DNA from: Pyxidicoccus sp. MSG2
GTDB taxonomy: Bacteria > Myxococcota > Myxococcia > Myxococcales > Myxococcaceae
Direction of reading: 5' to 3'
NCBI RefSeq assembly: GCF_026626705.1
Contig: NZ_JAPNKC010000001.1
Span: 5,784,001 to 5,848,000, forward strand
Length of the DNA stretch: 64,000 bases
Translations under genes and position numbers: made by a program
Notes under the pieces: model-generated
Seen by the model: the letters and a program-made list of their open reading frames with translations, nothing else
Told to the model about the DNA's origin: nothing
The model's database searches: none
Shown here: in pieces, positions 3-64,000 of the stretch
Numbering within the stretch: the first letter of the stretch is position 1
How the letters are laid out: each line of letters starts with the position of its first letter

Positions 3-695
3 CTCGGCTACTTCGACCAGCTGTACCAGGTGGAGCTGCGCCTCTCGCGCCGCGCGGAAGGGGTGCTCGCCACCGGCACCGGCCTCGCGTCGGAGGACCT
101 GCTGGACGGGCTGCGCAAGGTGGCCGCCGCGCAGTGGGGCTCCGCCCGGTATGTGCTCCCCGCCGAGAGCATCCCCTTCCTCCGCGACGCCGCGCGGCTG
201 CTCGGCTTCGTCTCCGCGGAGGCGCTCCTGGCCCCGCTGGAGTCCCAGCCCCAGGGCCGGTACGAGACGCTGTCGCTTGGCCACCTGGAGCTGGTCTTCA
301 CCGGGCCGGGTGGGAAGCGCGTCTCCGCGCGGGAGCTGGGCTACGGCCAGAAGCGCTTCGTGGCCTTCCTGCACTACCTGGCCCATGCGCGCGCCGTGGT
401 GGTGGCCGACGAGCTGGCCCACGCCCTCCATCCCCGGCAGCTCCGCGCGGGCCTCGAGCAGCTCGGTGCCCGGCAGGCCTTCCTCACCAGCCAGAGCCCG
501 CTCCTGCTCGACAGCCTCAAGTTCGACTCGGCCGAGCACGTGCGTGGCACCTTCGTACGTTGCCGCCGCGAGGACGGCACTGGCGTGCTCGTCTGGGAGG
601 ACCTGTCCCCCGATGCCGCCGAGGACTTCTTCACCGCGTACCGCGCCGCCTCCCAGCGCGTGGGCGAGCTGCTCCAGGCCCGCGGGCTCTGGTAG
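3..695 (+). CDS. AAA family ATPase, C-terminal part (5' end outside window)
   Basis: The reading frame is already open at the first bases, so this is the 3' part of a longer gene. The visible ~230 residues match the C-terminal half of an ABC/OLD-like AAA ATPase. A GYGQKR segment stands where the ABC signature would be. A Walker-B-like run VVVADELAHALHP contains the D-E pair and the usual LHP tail. LTSQSPLLLD is the switch segment, with Q where many relatives have H. Proteins of this class act in DNA repair, overcoming-lysogeny-type defence or as stand-alone ATPases; the missing N-terminus (Walker A and any nuclease or effector domain) prevents a choice. A 26-bp tandem duplication spans its stop codon. 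The family is fairly sure, the role unknown. Confidence 0.7.
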   Translation, partial: LGYFDQLYQVELRLSRRAEGVLATGTGLASEDLLDGLRKVAAAQWGSARYVLPAESIPFLRDAARLLGFVSAEALLAPLESQPQGRYETLSLGHLELVFTGPGGKRVSARELGYGQKRFVAFLHYLAHARAVVVADELAHALHPRQLRAGLEQLGARQAFLTSQSPLLLDSLKFDSAEHVRGTFVRCRREDGTGVLVWEDLSPDAAEDFFTAYRAASQRVGELLQARGLW

Positions 696-58770: not shown

Positions 58771-58800
58771 TTGACCGGGGTGTGCGCTGGACACTATGGG
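58771..58800 (+). promoter_or_regulatory. Putative promoter of the Nudix gene
   Basis: TTGACC (58771-58776) and TATGGG (58795-58800) are separated by 18 bp. The segment GGACACTATG recurs in the promoter of the PP2C gene. The -10 match is weak. Confidence 0.4.
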
Positions 58801-58835: not shown

Positions 58836-59525
58836 GTGAGTCACACCTACGAGTATCCCAGGCCCGCCTTGACGGTGGACTGCGTCGTCTTCGGCCAGGA
58901 TGAAGACGACCTGAAGGTGTTGCTCATCCGGCGGGGCGTGGAGCCCTACGCGGGGCGCTGGGCGCTGCCCGGCGGCTTCGTGCGCATGGAGGAGTCCCTG
59001 GACGCCGCCGCGCGCCGCGAGCTGGAGGAAGAGGCCGGCATCCGCCCGGGGCACATGGAGCAGCTCTACACCTTCGGCGACCCGGGGAGGGACCCGCGCG
59101 GGCGCGTCGTCACGGTGGCGTACTTCGCGCTGGTGAAGCTCAGCGACCACACGCTGCACGCGGCCACGGACGCGCGAGAGGCGGCGTGGTTCTCCGTGTG
59201 GGACGCGCCGAAGCTGGCGTTCGACCACGCGGACGTCCTCGCCACCGCGCTGCAGCGGCTCAAGGGCAAGGTCCGCTACCAGCCCATCGGCTTCGAGCTG
59301 CTGCCGCCCAAGTTCACCCTGACGCAGCTCCAGCGGCTGTACGAAGTCATCCTGGAGCGGCAGCTCGACAAGCGGAACTTCCGCAAGAAGATTCTCGCCA
59401 TGGACCTGCTGGAGGAATTGGACGAGGTGGAGCAGGACGTCTCCCACCGCGCCGCGCGCCTCTACCGGTTCGACCACAAGAAGTACAAACAGCTGGAGAA
59501 GGCGGGCTTCAACTTCGAGCTGTGA
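58836..59525 (+). CDS. Nudix hydrolase with C-terminal winged helix (NrtR-like)
   Basis: A 229-residue protein (GTG start at 58836). A perfect Nudix box, GX5EX7REUXEEXGU, spans residues 47-69 ([20 protein letters not shown]...), and a C-terminal domain of ~85 residues ([28 protein letters not shown]) is the winged helix of NrtR-like regulators. NrtR proteins bind ADP-ribose and repress NAD-biosynthesis or ADP-ribose genes. Because the catalytic box is intact, this one may hydrolyse ADP-ribose, regulate, or do both. No nad gene is adjacent. The ribosome site is close to the start, so a start at 58782 is not excluded. Confidence 0.85.
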
Positions 59526-59549: not shown

Positions 59550-60473
59550 TCATCCCTGCTCATTCACGAGCACCCACGCATCCTCGGCGGGGACGTGGGT
59601 TTCGTGCGAGGGCGCGGGCTCGCCGGGTTTGATGTCGAGGGGATGTTTCTCCCAGACAGTCATGGTGAAGCCGGGCAGCCGCACGCGCCGCGCGGGCCCG
59701 TGAAGGGGGAGCTCCACTTCGTCCGCACCCTCGGCCATGCGCTCCGCGGCCTCGATGCCGGCCTGGGTGACGTCGTCCTCGAGGAGGTTCTGCGAGCCCT
59801 TGTGGGAGTGGGCGAGCAGTAGCGCTGCCTCCGTCACCACGCCGCCGCTGAGCGCGCGGAGCACGCGGTCCGCCCAGCGGGCGCGCCAGAGGTCGGACCA
59901 GGCCTCTTGTGACAGCCAGCCCGGCGCTCCCGGGTCCTCGTCCTGGCGCACCGCGTCCCGCCAGTTGACCCAGGAGTGGGACGGGGTGGCGCCACCCTCG
60001 CGGTGGACCCAGAGCGTGTCCGAGTGTCGCGTGTAGCCGGCCAGCCAATACGCCTGCCCATGGCTTTCGAGGAAGTGGCGCGTCTGCGCATCCAGGGACG
60101 TCAGCCTGGCGAGCTGGTCGAGCGCCAGCGCCTTGAGCTCACGCGTGTCGGGCGCGAACTCGGCGTCCAGCTCCGCCATTTCCCAGAGATAGACTTCGAA
60201 CTCGGCGCGCTCTTCCTCGGGGAGCCGGAGGTCGGCCTGTTTGCGCAGCTCGGGCGGAAGCTCGCGCGCGTCGACCAGGGACACGTCGCTCTTCCACTCC
60301 GCCAACGGATGCGCCTCGGGAAAGCCCGCGTCGGGGCCAAGGAGCACGTGCACCCTCTTCCCGAAGGACAGGCTGCTGGGGGAGCGCACGCCGATGACTC
60401 CCGGCACGGCCAGGCGGTTTTCAGCAAGACGAAAGGGACGGATGGCGGGCTCCTGTCGAGGTGCTCCCGTCAT
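59550..60473 (-). CDS. Hypothetical protein, tandem paralogue 1
   Basis: A 307-residue protein of unrecognised family, clearly paralogous to the upstream gene. Shared motifs are RLAENRLAVPGVIGVRSP at the start, VSLVDARELPPELRK, the mid-protein YWLAGYTRHSD, and LHGPARRVRLPGFTMTV. No signal peptide, membrane segment or catalytic motif is visible. The paralogue's start aligns not with an ATG but with ATC at 60443-60441, which still has a ribosome site (GGAG) in front of it; the nearest in-frame ATG is at 60473 with a poor ribosome site. The true start is therefore uncertain. Confidence 0.7.
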   Translation of the reverse strand: MTGAPRQEPAIRPFRLAENRLAVPGVIGVRSPSSLSFGKRVHVLLGPDAGFPEAHPLAEWKSDVSLVDARELPPELRKQADLRLPEEERAEFEVYLWEMAELDAEFAPDTRELKALALDQLARLTSLDAQTRHFLESHGQAYWLAGYTRHSDTLWVHREGGATPSHSWVNWRDAVRQDEDPGAPGWLSQEAWSDLWRARWADRVLRALSGGVVTEAALLLAHSHKGSQNLLEDDVTQAGIEAAERMAEGADEVELPLHGPARRVRLPGFTMTVWEKHPLDIKPGEPAPSHETHVPAEDAWVLVNEQG

Positions 60474-60515: not shown

Positions 60516-61400
60516 TCAGCGCAGGTCTCTCGTGAGTACCCAGGTATCCTCGGCGGGCACCCGGGCTTCGTGCTGGCTCGCGGGCTTGTCGAGGGGATGG
60601 ACCTCGCTGACGGTCATCGTGAAGGCGGGCAGCCGCACCCGCCGTGCCGGCCCGTGGAGGGGAATCAGCACCTCGTCCGCTCCCGCGGCCATCCGTGCCG
60701 CCACCTCGACACCCTGTCGGGCGAGGTCGTCCTCCAGCAGCTCGCTGCCGTCTCCGCGCTGGCGCGCGAACAGGAGCCCCGTTTCCGTCACCGCGCCGCC
60801 GCTCAGTGCCCGCAGCACCCGGTCCGCCCAGCGCACGCGCCGGAGCTCGTAGTACTGCTCGAGTCGCAGCCAGCTCGGCGGCACATCGTCCGCCGTGTCC
60901 ACGCGGGTTTCATACCACCGGTTGGTCCACGCCTTGATGGGGGTGGGCCCGCCCATGCGGTGCACCCACAGCGAGTCGGAGTGTCGCGTGAAGCCGGCCA
61001 ACCAGTATTCATACCCGTGGGCCTCGAGGACGCGGCGTGCCTGTTCTTCCAGGGGCGTGAGCCGCGCTCGCTGCTGGAGGGCCAACTCCGCGAGCTTCCG
61101 GTCCTCGTAGTCGAAGGTCAGCTCCAGCTCCATCATCTCCCGACGGGAGGCTTCGAGCTCCGCGATTTCCACGTCGGGCAGCTCGAGGCCGGCCTCCTTC
61201 CGCAGCTCGGGTGGGAGCGCGCGCACATCGACCAGGGCCACTTCGCTCTTCCACTCATCCAGCGGCTGGTATTCGGGGAACCCCGCGTCGGGTCCGGTGA
61301 GCACGTGCACCTGGTGGCCGAAGGACAGGCCACCCGGGGAGCGCACGCCGATGACTCCGGGCACGGCCAGGCGGTTTTCAGCGAGACGAACGGGGCGCAT
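60516..61400 (-). CDS. Hypothetical protein, tandem paralogue 2
   Basis: A 294-residue protein and close relative of the downstream gene, from which its stop codon is 42 bases away; they probably arose by tandem duplication and form a two-gene unit. Features are MRPVRLAENRLAVPG, VALVDVRALPPELRK, YWLAGFTRHSD and LHGPARRVRLPAFTMTV. GAGGAG sits 8 bases before the ATG at 61400, so I reject a 22-residue upstream extension. It is divergent from the PP2C/kinase pair. Function unknown. Confidence 0.75.
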   Translation of the reverse strand: MRPVRLAENRLAVPGVIGVRSPGGLSFGHQVHVLTGPDAGFPEYQPLDEWKSEVALVDVRALPPELRKEAGLELPDVEIAELEASRREMMELELTFDYEDRKLAELALQQRARLTPLEEQARRVLEAHGYEYWLAGFTRHSDSLWVHRMGGPTPIKAWTNRWYETRVDTADDVPPSWLRLEQYYELRRVRWADRVLRALSGGAVTETGLLFARQRGDGSELLEDDLARQGVEVAARMAAGADEVLIPLHGPARRVRLPAFTMTVSEVHPLDKPASQHEARVPAEDTWVLTRDLR

Positions 61401-61511
61401 GGCGGGCTCCTCGCGGTGACATTTCGTCATCCTACGCGACAGCGTCTCCACGCCTGACCTGTGCACAAGCCCACTTGGACCGTGCCCTCCGGTGCGAACG
61501 GCCCCGATTGA

Positions 61512-61541
61512 TTTGACAAGGTGTCAAACGGACACTATGTT
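61512..61541 (+). promoter_or_regulatory. Promoter and overlapping palindrome upstream of PP2C gene
   Basis: TTGACA (61512-61517), an 18-bp spacer and TATGTT (61536-61541) form a good sigma-70-like promoter. TTGACA-AGG-TGTCAA (61512-61526) is a perfect inverted repeat covering the -35 box, and GTGTC-N5-GACAC (61521-61535) overlaps it. Repressor binding here would block transcription. The rest of the 326-bp divergent gap shows no other feature. Confidence 0.65.
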
Positions 61542-61726
61542 GGTGTCGTAGAAACACGAACCTGGAAACGAGGCACCGCCCGCCGCGCCACGAGAGGAGA
61601 GGCGCGCTCGCGGCGCCCGCTTCCAGGGGCGTGTGGAGGCCGCCGTCCGTGGGGAGTCCACGGACGAGGTGCGCCGCCCTATGCGTCGTCCCGCTGTCCG
61701 TGCCCGAAGAGGGCCACGGGAGAGTC

Positions 61727-62533
61727 ATGTCCGCGCTGCCCTTCGACATCGCCGCCGCTTCGGTGCAGGGCCGGGAGCACGCTCGGGCGGGGCGCAACAA
61801 CCAGGATGCGCTGTGCATCCGCGCCAGTGAGCACGGGCTGGTGGCGGTCGTGGCGGACGGGTGCGGCAGCCAGCCGTGCAGCGAATTGGGCGCGCAGCTC
61901 GGCGTGCGGCGGTTGGTGCAGGCGGCGCAGCAGCGGCTCGCGGAGGGCGAGCGCGTGGACGCGGCCTCCTTCCTGCCGGGCCTGCGCGAGGACCTGCTGT
62001 GCCTCCTGGGCGAGCTACGGGGCGAGTTGGGCCGCGAGGCACTGGCGGACTTCCTCTTCACCGTGGTGGGCGCGGTGGTGACGCCCGCGAAGACGCTCAT
62101 CTTCTCCGCGGGGGACGGGGTGTGGGCGCTCAACGGGGAGGTGCATCCGCTCGGGCCCTTTCCAGGGAATGCGCCGCCGTACCTCGCCTATGCGCTGATG
62201 CGCGCCGACGACGTGCCGCTGTCCACGCAGGCGCTGATTCCCACCGAGGACGTGCACGCGCTGCTCCTCGGCACGGATGGGGTGGTGGACCTGGAGCGGC
62301 TCGCCTCGGCGCGAATCCCCGAGAAGGACGAGCTGGTGGGTCCGCTGTCCCGGCTCTGGACGGAGGACCGGTACTTCGCCAACCCGGATGCGCTGCGGCG
62401 CCGGCTGGCGTTGCTCAACCGCGAGTCCGTGCGTGCCGACTTCGACGCCCGTCGCGTGGTGCGCACGCCGGGGCTGCTGCCGGACGACACGACGCTCGTG
62501 GTGCTGCGTCGCCGCATCATGGGGAGGGCGTGA
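61727..62533 (+). CDS. PP2C family serine/threonine phosphatase
   Basis: A 268-residue cytoplasmic phosphatase. Motifs in order are GRNNQDAL with the metal-binding Asp, VVADGCGSQP (the DG-x-G site), SAGDGVWAL, LLLGTDGVVDL and DDTTLVVL. Length and motifs fit a minimal PP2C/SpoIIE-like catalytic domain without a sensor domain. The ATG at 61727 has ACGGGAGAG upstream and is preferred to a GTG at 61631. It is followed after four bases by a protein kinase gene, so the two probably control phosphorylation of the same targets, as in TerY-P-type phosphatase/kinase/VWA triads. Confidence 0.88.
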   Translation: MSALPFDIAAASVQGREHARAGRNNQDALCIRASEHGLVAVVADGCGSQPCSELGAQLGVRRLVQAAQQRLAEGERVDAASFLPGLREDLLCLLGELRGELGREALADFLFTVVGAVVTPAKTLIFSAGDGVWALNGEVHPLGPFPGNAPPYLAYALMRADDVPLSTQALIPTEDVHALLLGTDGVVDLERLASARIPEKDELVGPLSRLWTEDRYFANPDALRRRLALLNRESVRADFDARRVVRTPGLLPDDTTLVVLRRRIMGRA

Positions 62534-62537
62534 CGCC

Positions 62538-64000
62538 ATGGACGTATGGCTCGAGGGGAAGAAGGTACGGCTGAACCCGGCGCACGCGCTGGGCAAGGGC
62601 GGCGAGGCGGACGTCTTCGATTTGGGTGACGGCCGCGCCCTCAAGGTGTTCAAACCGCCCGAGCATCCCGACTACACGGGGCTGCCCGCGGAGCAGGCCG
62701 CCGCGCGCGTCCGGCTGGATGAGCACCAGCGCAAGCTGCGCGCCTTCCCGGCGGGACTGCCCGGGCGTGTGGTGGTGCCGCAGGTGCTCGCCACGGACAA
62801 GAAGGGGCACACGGTGCTGGGCTATGCGATGCGCAAGCTCGACGCCGTGGAGCCGCTGCGCCGCTTCGGTGAGCCGTCGTTCCGCCGCGCCGGTGCCACG
62901 TCCGCGCGCGTGGTGGAGGTGCTGCGCGGGCTGCACCGGACGCTCGACGCCGTGCACGCGTCGGGTGTGGTGGTGGGGGACTTCAACGACCTCAACGTGC
63001 TGGTGGCGGGCGTGGCGGACGCGTACTTCATCGACGCGGACAGCTTCCAGTTCGGCGCGTTCCTCTGCCCGGTGTTCACCGAGCGGTTCCTGGACCCGCT
63101 GCGCGTCGGCACCGCCAGCGGCCTGGTGCCCGCGCGGCCCGCGTCGGCGGACAGTGACTGGTATGCCTTCGCGGTGACGGTGATGCAGGGCCTCTTGTGC
63201 GTGGGGCCGCATGGCGGCGTGCACCGGCCGAAGACTCCGGCGGGGCGCACGACGCCCGCGGGCCGGGTGCTCCAGCGCGTCACCGTCTTCCACCCGGAGG
63301 TGCAGTACCCCAAGCCCGCGATGCCGCTGGCCACGCTGCCGGACGACGTGCTGCACCACCTGCACCGCGTCTTCGTGGAGGACCTGCGCGGCGTCTTCCC
63401 GCTGCCGTTGCTGGAGGGACTGCGCTTCACCGCGTGCGCCTCGTGCGGCGTGGAGCATGCGCGCGGGGCGTGTCCCACGTGCCAGCCGAACGCTACGGCC
63501 ACGGTGACGCCTGTCACCTCGGCGCGCGGGCAGGTGACGGCGACGCGCCTGTTCTCCACGCGTGGAGTGCTGGTGCACGCCAGTGCCGAGGACGGTGCCC
63601 TGCGCTGGCTGTACCACGCGGAAGGCGCGTACCGGCGCGAGGACGGGCGCGTCGTGCTGCGCGGGCCGTTGGACCCGTCGCTGCGGTGGGGGCTGCAAGG
63701 CGACGTCACGTTGGTCGGGCGGGCAGGGGAGGTGGCGGTGCTGGCACCGGGGAAGCCGGCGGAGCGCGTGGGGGTGGACGCGCCCGAGGGCCAGCCGGCC
63801 TTCGCCGCCAACGCGCGTCATCGTTACTGGGCCGCGGGAGGCGGCCTGTGGCGGGACGGTGCGTACGGCGCGGAGCGTATCGGCGACGTGCTGGAGGGGC
63901 AGACGCGCCTCTTCGTGGGGCCTCGCTTCGGGCTGGGCTTCCACCGGGCGGGCGGGCTGCGCGGGGCGTTCGTCTTCGACGCGGGGCGCACCGGGCTGAA
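62538..64000 (+). CDS. Divergent protein kinase with zinc ribbon (TerY-P-type), 3' end outside window
   Basis: An open frame of at least 487 residues that runs off the right edge. The kinase-like domain (~1-280) has a glycine loop GKGGEADVF, Lys in LKVFKPP, a degenerate catalytic loop GDFNDLNVLV that keeps Asp and Asn, and IDADSFQF in place of DFG. This GD-x-N...N and DxDSFQ pattern is that of kinases in TerY-P triads. After it comes a four-Cys zinc ribbon (CASCG...CPTC, ~residue 300) and a region with W-G/Y repeats that may be a beta-propeller. Four bases separate it from the phosphatase stop. The downstream part and any VWA partner are not visible. Confidence 0.82.
   Translation, partial: MDVWLEGKKVRLNPAHALGKGGEADVFDLGDGRALKVFKPPEHPDYTGLPAEQAAARVRLDEHQRKLRAFPAGLPGRVVVPQVLATDKKGHTVLGYAMRKLDAVEPLRRFGEPSFRRAGATSARVVEVLRGLHRTLDAVHASGVVVGDFNDLNVLVAGVADAYFIDADSFQFGAFLCPVFTERFLDPLRVGTASGLVPARPASADSDWYAFAVTVMQGLLCVGPHGGVHRPKTPAGRTTPAGRVLQRVTVFHPEVQYPKPAMPLATLPDDVLHHLHRVFVEDLRGVFPLPLLEGLRFTACASCGVEHARGACPTCQPNATATVTPVTSARGQVTATRLFSTRGVLVHASAEDGALRWLYHAEGAYRREDGRVVLRGPLDPSLRWGLQGDVTLVGRAGEVAVLAPGKPAERVGVDAPEGQPAFAANARHRYWAAGGGLWRDGAYGAERIGDVLEGQTRLFVGPRFGLGFHRAGGLRGAFVFDAGRTGL

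Follow-up and report, generated by a model that had tools for sequence, protein, structure and literature searches.

A conserved four-gene operon of Pyxidicoccus sp. MSG2 that joins a YegI-like kinase, a PP2C-type phosphatase and a VWA protein to a nicotinamidase-type hydrolase, with a possible role in NAD salvage

The window considered here is a stretch of 64,000 nucleotides from Pyxidicoccus sp. MSG2 (contig NZ_JAPNKC010000001.1, positions 5784001-5848000, within a 13.3-Mb genome), and the subject is an operon that begins near its end and runs past it. The operon encodes a PP2C-type phosphatase, a YegI-like protein kinase, a nicotinamidase-type cysteine hydrolase and a VWA protein (Table 1), and its promoter carries tandem palindromes resembling the operators of NrtR, a regulator known from nicotinamide adenine dinucleotide (NAD) metabolism. 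Taken together, these features suggest that the operon serves NAD salvage. An earlier reading made from the window sequence alone had described the first two genes as part of a possible TerY-P-like triad; the NAD context is an addition to that account.

Conservation of the operon and its proteins

The sequence-only reading placed the kinase gene four bases after the PP2C gene and predicted a VWA gene as the third member of the set. The spacing is exactly four bases, and the VWA gene does follow, 1.2 kb beyond the kinase, with the nicotinamidase-type gene sitting between them.

Table 1. Features of the operon and its regulatory region. Coordinates are window positions; those above 64000 continue the same numbering past the window end, from an onward reading of the genome.
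Feature	Position	Strand	Details
NrtR-type operator before nrtR	58778..58796		GGGTGT-N7-ACACTA
NrtR-type Nudix/winged-helix regulator	58836..59525	+	NrtR_WHD match
Promoter, sigma-70-like	61513..61541	+	TTGACA, 17 nt, TATGTT
NrtR-type operator 1	61519..61537		AGGTGT-N7-ACACTA; between -35 and -10
NrtR-type operator 2	61541..61559		TGGTGT-N7-ACACGA; 22 bp past operator 1; starts at last base of -10
PP2C-type phosphatase	61727..62533	+	ATG 61727, stop ends 62533; 268 aa
YegI-like protein kinase	62538..64409	+	623 aa; window cuts gene at 64000
Kinase domains	kinase, residues ~1-297; zinc ribbon, 300-315; beta-propeller, ~322-623		
Zinc ribbon codons of kinase	63435..63482	+	C300, C303, C312, C315
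Nicotinamidase-type cysteine hydrolase	64476-65540 (L007:4476-5540)	+	354 aa; wholly past window
VWA protein	65642-66448 (L007:5642-6448)	+	268 aa; wholly past window

When the genome collection was scanned with a profile of the kinase, 289 candidate stretches came up, of which 173 were confirmed; the best 80 of these form the sample of kinase loci used here. All four genes are present in 67 of the 80, invariably in the order PP2C-kinase-nicotinamidase-VWA and on one strand (67/67), with less than 6 kb between the end of the PP2C gene and that of the VWA gene. The VWA gene, whose absence from this and related genomes the sequence-only reading had named as the finding that would count against a triad, thus stays in the operon across phyla. 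Grouped by the titles of their sequence records, many of which are metagenome bins (and one of which, L145, is titled Comamonas), the loci belong to Myxococcota, Cyanobacteria, Patescibacteria, Elusimicrobia, Planctomycetota, Blastocatellia and a few other bins. Because the genes are conserved across phyla, the pairing of PP2C and kinase is judged to be beyond chance. The evolutionary distances of the four genes also correlate with one another over the 67 loci (r 0.71-0.92, against a maximum of 0.19 after permutation), in part through the shared ancestry of the species, and the PP2C co-varies most with the kinase (r 0.92).

Among the 13 incomplete loci, the contig ends within 1.1 kb past the kinase in seven (L102, L106, L114, L120, L125, L127, L148) and begins just before the kinase in one (L137). 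In the remaining five, all cyanobacterial (L129, L136, L149, L158, L174), the hydrolase and VWA genes are absent from the 1.6 to 7 kb of available sequence that follow the kinase. The hydrolase is found elsewhere in all five genomes, and in four of them it is adjoined by the VWA gene; likewise, an operator with at most one mismatch precedes the distant hydrolase in 4/5.

Closer to the window, the kinase is matched in 46 of 80 genomes (its own and relatives, at E <= 0.001, with G059 a weak fragment), while the hydrolase is found in 102/195 and the VWA protein in 88/189 genomes of the phylum. Within the genus, where presence was counted for kinase, hydrolase and VWA protein, each occurs in 27 of 27 genomes. 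The distribution of the kinase in cyanobacteria is patchy: of 146 genomes sampled there, five contain the full-length protein, and one of these (G195) was picked as the centre of the sample for having it.

The PP2C protein matches Pfam PP2C_2 (E 2.4e-21), and its Asp motifs (QD, DG, GDG, TDG, DD.T) are unvaried in 14/14 aligned sequences. The kinase has no match in Pfam. A profile of 13 family members, of the kind that the sequence-only reading had proposed searching with, matches solved Ser/Thr kinases (PknE, E 3.4e-6), and an AlphaFold2 model with a predicted local distance difference test (pLDDT) score of 85.4 matches kinases in Foldseek and VIA-align (best VIA Z 18.2, in a whole-model comparison that scarcely tested the propeller part). 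The motifs GDFNDLN and IDADSF, which the sequence-only reading took as signs of a degenerate catalytic loop, are indeed present, and Asn150 stands where usual kinases have Lys. Degeneracy goes no further than this: the glycine loop GxGGEA, K36, D148, N153 and D166 are unvaried in 13/13 aligned relatives. Since position 150 is itself an invariant Asn (13/13), the loop appears to be family-specific and not decayed. A pseudokinase or degenerate kinase is not taken as the simplest reading, as the remaining catalytic residues are unvaried and Escherichia coli YegI, which has a similar loop (GDVN and LIDSDSFQ), is reported to autophosphorylate (PMC13232886). A relationship to lanthipeptide synthetases was likewise set aside, since the match to NCBIfam LanL (E 8.6e-8) covers residues 106-232 only and reaches 31 bits against a cut-off of 650, and a propeller, not a cyclase, follows.

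The zinc ribbon expected in the kinase is borne out by its four Cys, all of which are kept in 13/13 aligned relatives; of two relatives outside the alignment, one (L073) has the ribbon and the other (L076) is without the second Cys pair. The C-terminal part had been suspected of forming a propeller. When residues 318-623 (306 aa) were folded alone from 29 sequences, the model reached a pLDDT of 94.7 and a predicted template modeling (TM) score of 0.90, with 29 strands (seven blades as counted by eye), and the suspected beta-propeller is borne out by this model. Many of the top Foldseek matches are, as we take them to be, beta-propellers (kelch KLHDC2, clathrin terminal domain, WDR91, TolB). 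The best E is 1.7e-5 and the TM-score to the query is at most 0.58 among the matches listed; with identities of 8-15%, the fold class alone is taken from these matches and no closest relatives are claimed. The zinc ribbon and propeller are likely to be sensing or docking parts of the kinase.

In the hydrolase, D60, K222 and C274 together with D108, H110 and H188 are unvaried in 14/14 relatives, and we take these to be the catalytic Asp-Lys-Cys and metal-site residues of PncA. The protein has a weak profile match to PncA at E 9.5e-4 and aligns with a PncA-type protein at E 1.2e-6, while falling short of the curated cut-offs of Pfam Isochorismatase (18.7 vs 27 bits) and NCBIfam (25.2 vs 174). 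The profile evidence is weak but consistent, and the hydrolase is best placed as a probable divergent, longer branch of the PncA-type nicotinamidases. As its catalytic residues are intact, catalytic activity is likely. In the VWA protein, the residues of the metal-ion-dependent adhesion site (D67, S69, S71, T136, D172) are unvaried in 14/14. The Pfam VWA model is reached by 9/14 family members, and the window genome's own VWA protein is not among these. The alignments of both families exclude L073, where the VWA reading frame is broken.

Related hydrolase genes are also found in other arrangements. The window genome has a second one, about 40% identical, at L085:6804-7811 (match at C1:8832839-8833804). 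In L068 (G067:C386) the order is NrtR, hydrolase, PP2C, kinase, hydrolase, VWA, giving two hydrolases per cluster, and in L077 (G053:C34) a hydrolase gene is found with nrtR and an operator, and no kinase, PP2C or VWA gene lies within 13 kb.

NrtR-type operators and the NAD context

The regulator gene lies 2.2 kb upstream of the operon, and its product, the sole full-length match in the genome, is recognized by Pfam NrtR_WHD (5.5e-30) and by NF050029 (E 1.4e-53; 181.8 bits, under the 400-bit cut-off). Its start is likelier to be the GTG at 58836 than the mechanically assigned 58782. Of the 80 loci, 47 have an NrtR-related gene no more than 4.5 kb from the module, and in 44 it is no more than 1 kb away. 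Cyanobacterial loci that have the gene carry it in divergent orientation, and elsewhere in the Myxococcaceae, for example in L135, nrtR is immediately upstream of the PP2C gene. Between nrtR and the operon in the window lie two adjoining open reading frames on the minus strand (59550-60473 and 60516-61466), which are related to each other (phmmer 5.8e-64 over part) and have no match in Pfam, NCBIfam or PADLOC.

The gaps between nrtR and PP2C genes in cyanobacteria gave the palindrome TAGTGT-N7-ACACTA, which is clear in six of 13 (L139, L150, L157, L168, L170, L176). At up to three mismatches the window holds four sites (3.54 expected). At up to two mismatches it holds only three, one before nrtR and two before the PP2C gene. 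No promoter-like match other than the operon promoter of Table 1 is found in that region, and 50 shuffles gave a mean of 0.0. By our reading, the site before nrtR lies between TTGACC and TATGGG. Across the 76 kinase loci that include the PP2C start, a candidate operator lies near that start in 39 (20 shuffles: mean 0.55, maximum 2), and the density of sites is 2.04 per kb in the window upstream of PP2C against 0.041 outside it.

The closer relatives were sampled as the best 30 of the 46 kinase-matched genomes. Tandem sites 22 bp apart are present in 30/30 of these family loci. The pair lies about 0.8-1.0 kb before the kinase, and hence before the PP2C gene, in 27, and in the gap between kinase and hydrolase in the other three (L031, L035, L036). 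The half-sites are conserved while the N7 spacer drifts, and TTGAC precedes the pair in 29/30, with L017 outside this pattern though it has the tandem sites. Regulation of the operon by NrtR through these putative operators is well supported by sequence in the window's branch. The loci that have no NrtR or operator belong mostly to a branch whose proteins are about 40% identical, where regulation may differ or the motif may have changed.

Three of the 22 operator-like sites of the genome are in the window, and six others were examined in their wider surroundings. Two of these six precede NAD or ADP-ribose genes; at the other four no such gene is seen among the filtered reading frames, as judged by eye and with no Pfam search. 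One of the two sites, with one mismatch, stands directly before a PARG-type gene (PF05028; C1:5723392-5724390, L234:4393-5391). This gene was found in 5 of 31 genomes searched, and all five loci have the operator with at most one mismatch, making it a candidate for an ADP-ribose-induced bacterial PARG. The other is followed by an SPFH/Band_7 gene and then an NAD-kinase-2-like gene (C1:7194920-7196884, L235:4421-6385). Tandem sites, the second with up to three mismatches, lie about 1 kb before the NAD-kinase-2-like gene in all 19 of the 31 searched genomes that have it.

The flanks of the operon were surveyed in 42 chosen loci, with neighbours confirmed by family search and a shuffle control that covers the operator alone. 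These flanks include genes for nicotinate phosphoribosyltransferase (L131, L165, and L072 by an NCBIfam match of 3.5e-31, under the cut-off), a PncA-type protein (L083), phosphoribosyl pyrophosphate synthetase (L144, L153), NAD synthase (L153), NAD kinase (L165), NADAR (L161) and an ADP-ribosylglycohydrolase (L160). In four cyanobacteria of one cluster (L152, L157, L160, L175), an ADP-ribosylglycohydrolase-like gene lies between the PP2C and kinase genes, the call being Pfam-checked in L160 only.

A proposed NAD-salvage role and its alternatives

We propose, with a probability of roughly two in three, that the operon serves NAD salvage and is induced by ADP-ribose, with the kinase, PP2C and VWA proteins forming a switch that controls its nicotinamidase. 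NrtR would repress the operon by binding the tandem operators of its promoter. When NAD is cleaved, ADP-ribose would accumulate, NrtR would leave the DNA and the operon would be transcribed; the nicotinamidase-type enzyme would then convert the released nicotinamide to nicotinate, which would return to NAD synthesis. The binding of NrtR to these sites and its release by ADP-ribose are suggested by the NrtR of Mycobacterium smegmatis, whose binding site is an 8-N7-8 palindrome and which ADP-ribose dissociates from DNA (PMC6800001). The YegI-like kinase and the PP2C would be an opposed pair, with the kinase probably active and the PP2C probably acting on it, as with YegI and PphC. The VWA protein would likely be a metal-dependent adaptor that keeps the nicotinamidase, its partner by gene position, under control of the kinase and PP2C. 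Gene order, the lasting pairing of hydrolase and VWA protein and the biochemistry of YegI and PphC together suggest phospho-control of the hydrolase, the target of the kinase presumably being the nicotinamidase, the VWA protein or both, with the direction of control equally conjectural.

Several observations weigh against this proposal. NrtR was not found at 33 of the 80 loci, some of them on short contigs, and no operator is found near PP2C at 37 of 76. Genome-wide, sites with up to two mismatches number 22 against 40 for a reversed-pattern control, and therefore only position and conservation argue for the operators. The identity of the hydrolase stands on motifs and weak profile matches. 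A nicotinamidase without the kinase occurs in 7 of 35 genomes that lack a clear kinase match (in G038 weakly), and the 14 kb around the second hydrolase gene of the window genome contain no kinase, PP2C, VWA or NrtR gene and no operator (at most one mismatch). The kinase has no known substrate, and its link to the nicotinamidase comes from gene order alone. As for the ligand, release of the M. smegmatis NrtR needed 50 mM ADP-ribose, and a Corynebacterium glutamicum relative is reported to bind DNA more tightly with NAD (PMC6800001). Because of these ligand data, ADP-ribose as inducer in the window operon is a guess, and confidence in the proposal is slightly lowered.

The same genes could be read in other ways. 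It is unlikely, to our minds, that the four genes are merely co-regulated in an ADP-ribose/NAD stress regulon, with the triad handling ADP-ribosylated or damaged proteins, the VWA protein as a chaperone and the nicotinamidase left untouched. The PARG, NADAR and ADP-ribosylglycohydrolase genes of the regulon or neighbourhood would suit such a role, as would the proposal that VWA proteins beside Nudix-regulated ADP-ribosylglycohydrolase (ARG) systems are peptide-binding chaperones (PMC9503650); against it, the four-gene order is kept in every complete locus, and the nicotinamidase-VWA pair is intact in four of the five genomes where the kinase lies elsewhere. Very unlikely is an antiphage system of TerY-P type in which the nicotinamidase would be an accessory or effector. 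Here the kinase, nicotinamidase and VWA genes are constant throughout the genus, whereas PADLOC TerY is found in 7/97 genomes of the phylum (one weakly), and PADLOC, whose models identify all three genes (TerY, PP2C, STK_OB) of a separate TerY-P system in the same genome, matches the four operon proteins only weakly (best 9.3e-5). NAD housekeeping genes are also nearby in several genomes, and the promoter carries operators of NAD-regulon type. These points outweigh the resemblance of three of the four parts to TerY-P-like triads, a group with reported antiphage members (PMC11090510, PMC7699616), as well as the ADP-ribose-handling genes near some loci and the patchiness of the full-length kinase in cyanobacteria.

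Improbable to much the same degree is a kinase whose substrate is a small NAD-salvage molecule, such as a riboside, and not a protein, with the PP2C acting elsewhere. A GDxNDxN loop without the catalytic Lys would be compatible with this, and several neighbours are metabolic NAD genes. Aminoglycoside/choline-kinase-like enzymes likewise have no catalytic-loop Lys. The PP2C gene directly before the kinase, with the strongest co-variation of the set, speaks for a protein substrate instead, as do the zinc ribbon and propeller, which suit protein docking, and the nearest tested relative, YegI, is reported to be dephosphorylated by PphC after autophosphorylation (PMC13232886).

If the proposed NAD-salvage switch is correct, it would place bacterial NAD salvage under the control of protein phosphorylation. 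A wider form of the proposal, which we put forward only tentatively and consider doubtful, is a cross-phylum response to NAD damage with a double reading of NAD cleavage: at the promoter through NrtR and ADP-ribose, and at the protein level through the kinase, PP2C and VWA proteins, which would gate the nicotinamidase. To our knowledge, no role outside defence has been assigned to a YegI/TerY-P-like phospho-triad, and the double reading, if true, would be the first such job; the operon might then be a recovery arm that follows NAD-depleting immunity. Such kinase/PP2C/VWA triads occur widely among bacteria. Their function becomes testable through this branch because the nicotinamidase and NrtR operators supply a candidate inducer, substrate and metabolite readout.

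Comparison with known systems

The ARG-centred systems that counter ADP-ribosylation likewise have a Nudix regulator and sometimes VWA, NADAR or macro domains (PMC9503650). They differ in that an ADP-ribosylglycohydrolase is their core, frequently accompanied by rhodanese-type phosphatases, and section 3.8 of that paper names no nicotinamidase, PP2C or kinase.

PMC11090510 describes a TerY-P-like triad as a VWA protein, a PP2C and a kinase that carries a zinc ribbon at its C-terminal end. An OB fold may take the place of the ribbon. The suggestion of the sequence-only reading that the window holds such a triad stands in this broad sense, as the operon has adjacent PP2C and kinase genes, a VWA gene in the unit and a zinc ribbon in the kinase. 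Unlike TerY-P, it is a four-gene unit with an internal nicotinamidase-type gene, a kinase propeller, NrtR-type operators and genus-wide presence of the kinase, hydrolase and VWA genes. None of the PADLOC TerY, PP2C and STK_OB models matches the four operon proteins up to E 1. The window genome also has a complete antiphage-type TerY-P elsewhere (C1:2788538-2791738, L186:3539-6739), with a different gene order. The operon proteins match those of this separate system only weakly, at 4.5e-6 (kinase), 0.022 (PP2C) and 0.024 (VWA), and profiles of the operon proteins have no match in the TerY-P loci L186-L188 at E <= 1e-3.

The YegI, PphC and YegL proteins of E. coli are closer: all three are related to the window triad, with hhalign E values of 1.3e-19 (274 columns), 2.9e-10 and 3.8e-5, respectively, and the similarity to YegI spans the kinase domain and the zinc-ribbon region. 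By these profile comparisons the triad is nearer to YegI/PphC/YegL, with PADLOC's antiphage TerY-P more distant. The operon and the E. coli set differ in gene order, and the 14-kb neighbourhood of the E. coli genes, with 13 annotated features, has neither a nicotinamidase nor an NrtR gene nor any NAD enzyme. YegI is reported to be a membrane-bound Ser/Thr kinase, and the text available to us of PMC13232886 gives no condition under which it is expressed and leaves its pathway open.

No paper linking a nicotinamidase or an NrtR regulon with a kinase/PP2C/VWA triad was found in the open-licence literature, though an earlier mention is possible. It is with the NrtR regulons of NAD metabolism that the regulatory side of the operon agrees: they too have an NrtR-type regulator beside NAD salvage genes, and the N7-spaced palindrome of the window operon is spaced like that reported for M. 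smegmatis NrtR (PMC6800001). What sets the window operon apart from these regulons is the presence of a kinase/phosphatase/VWA set as a regulon member.

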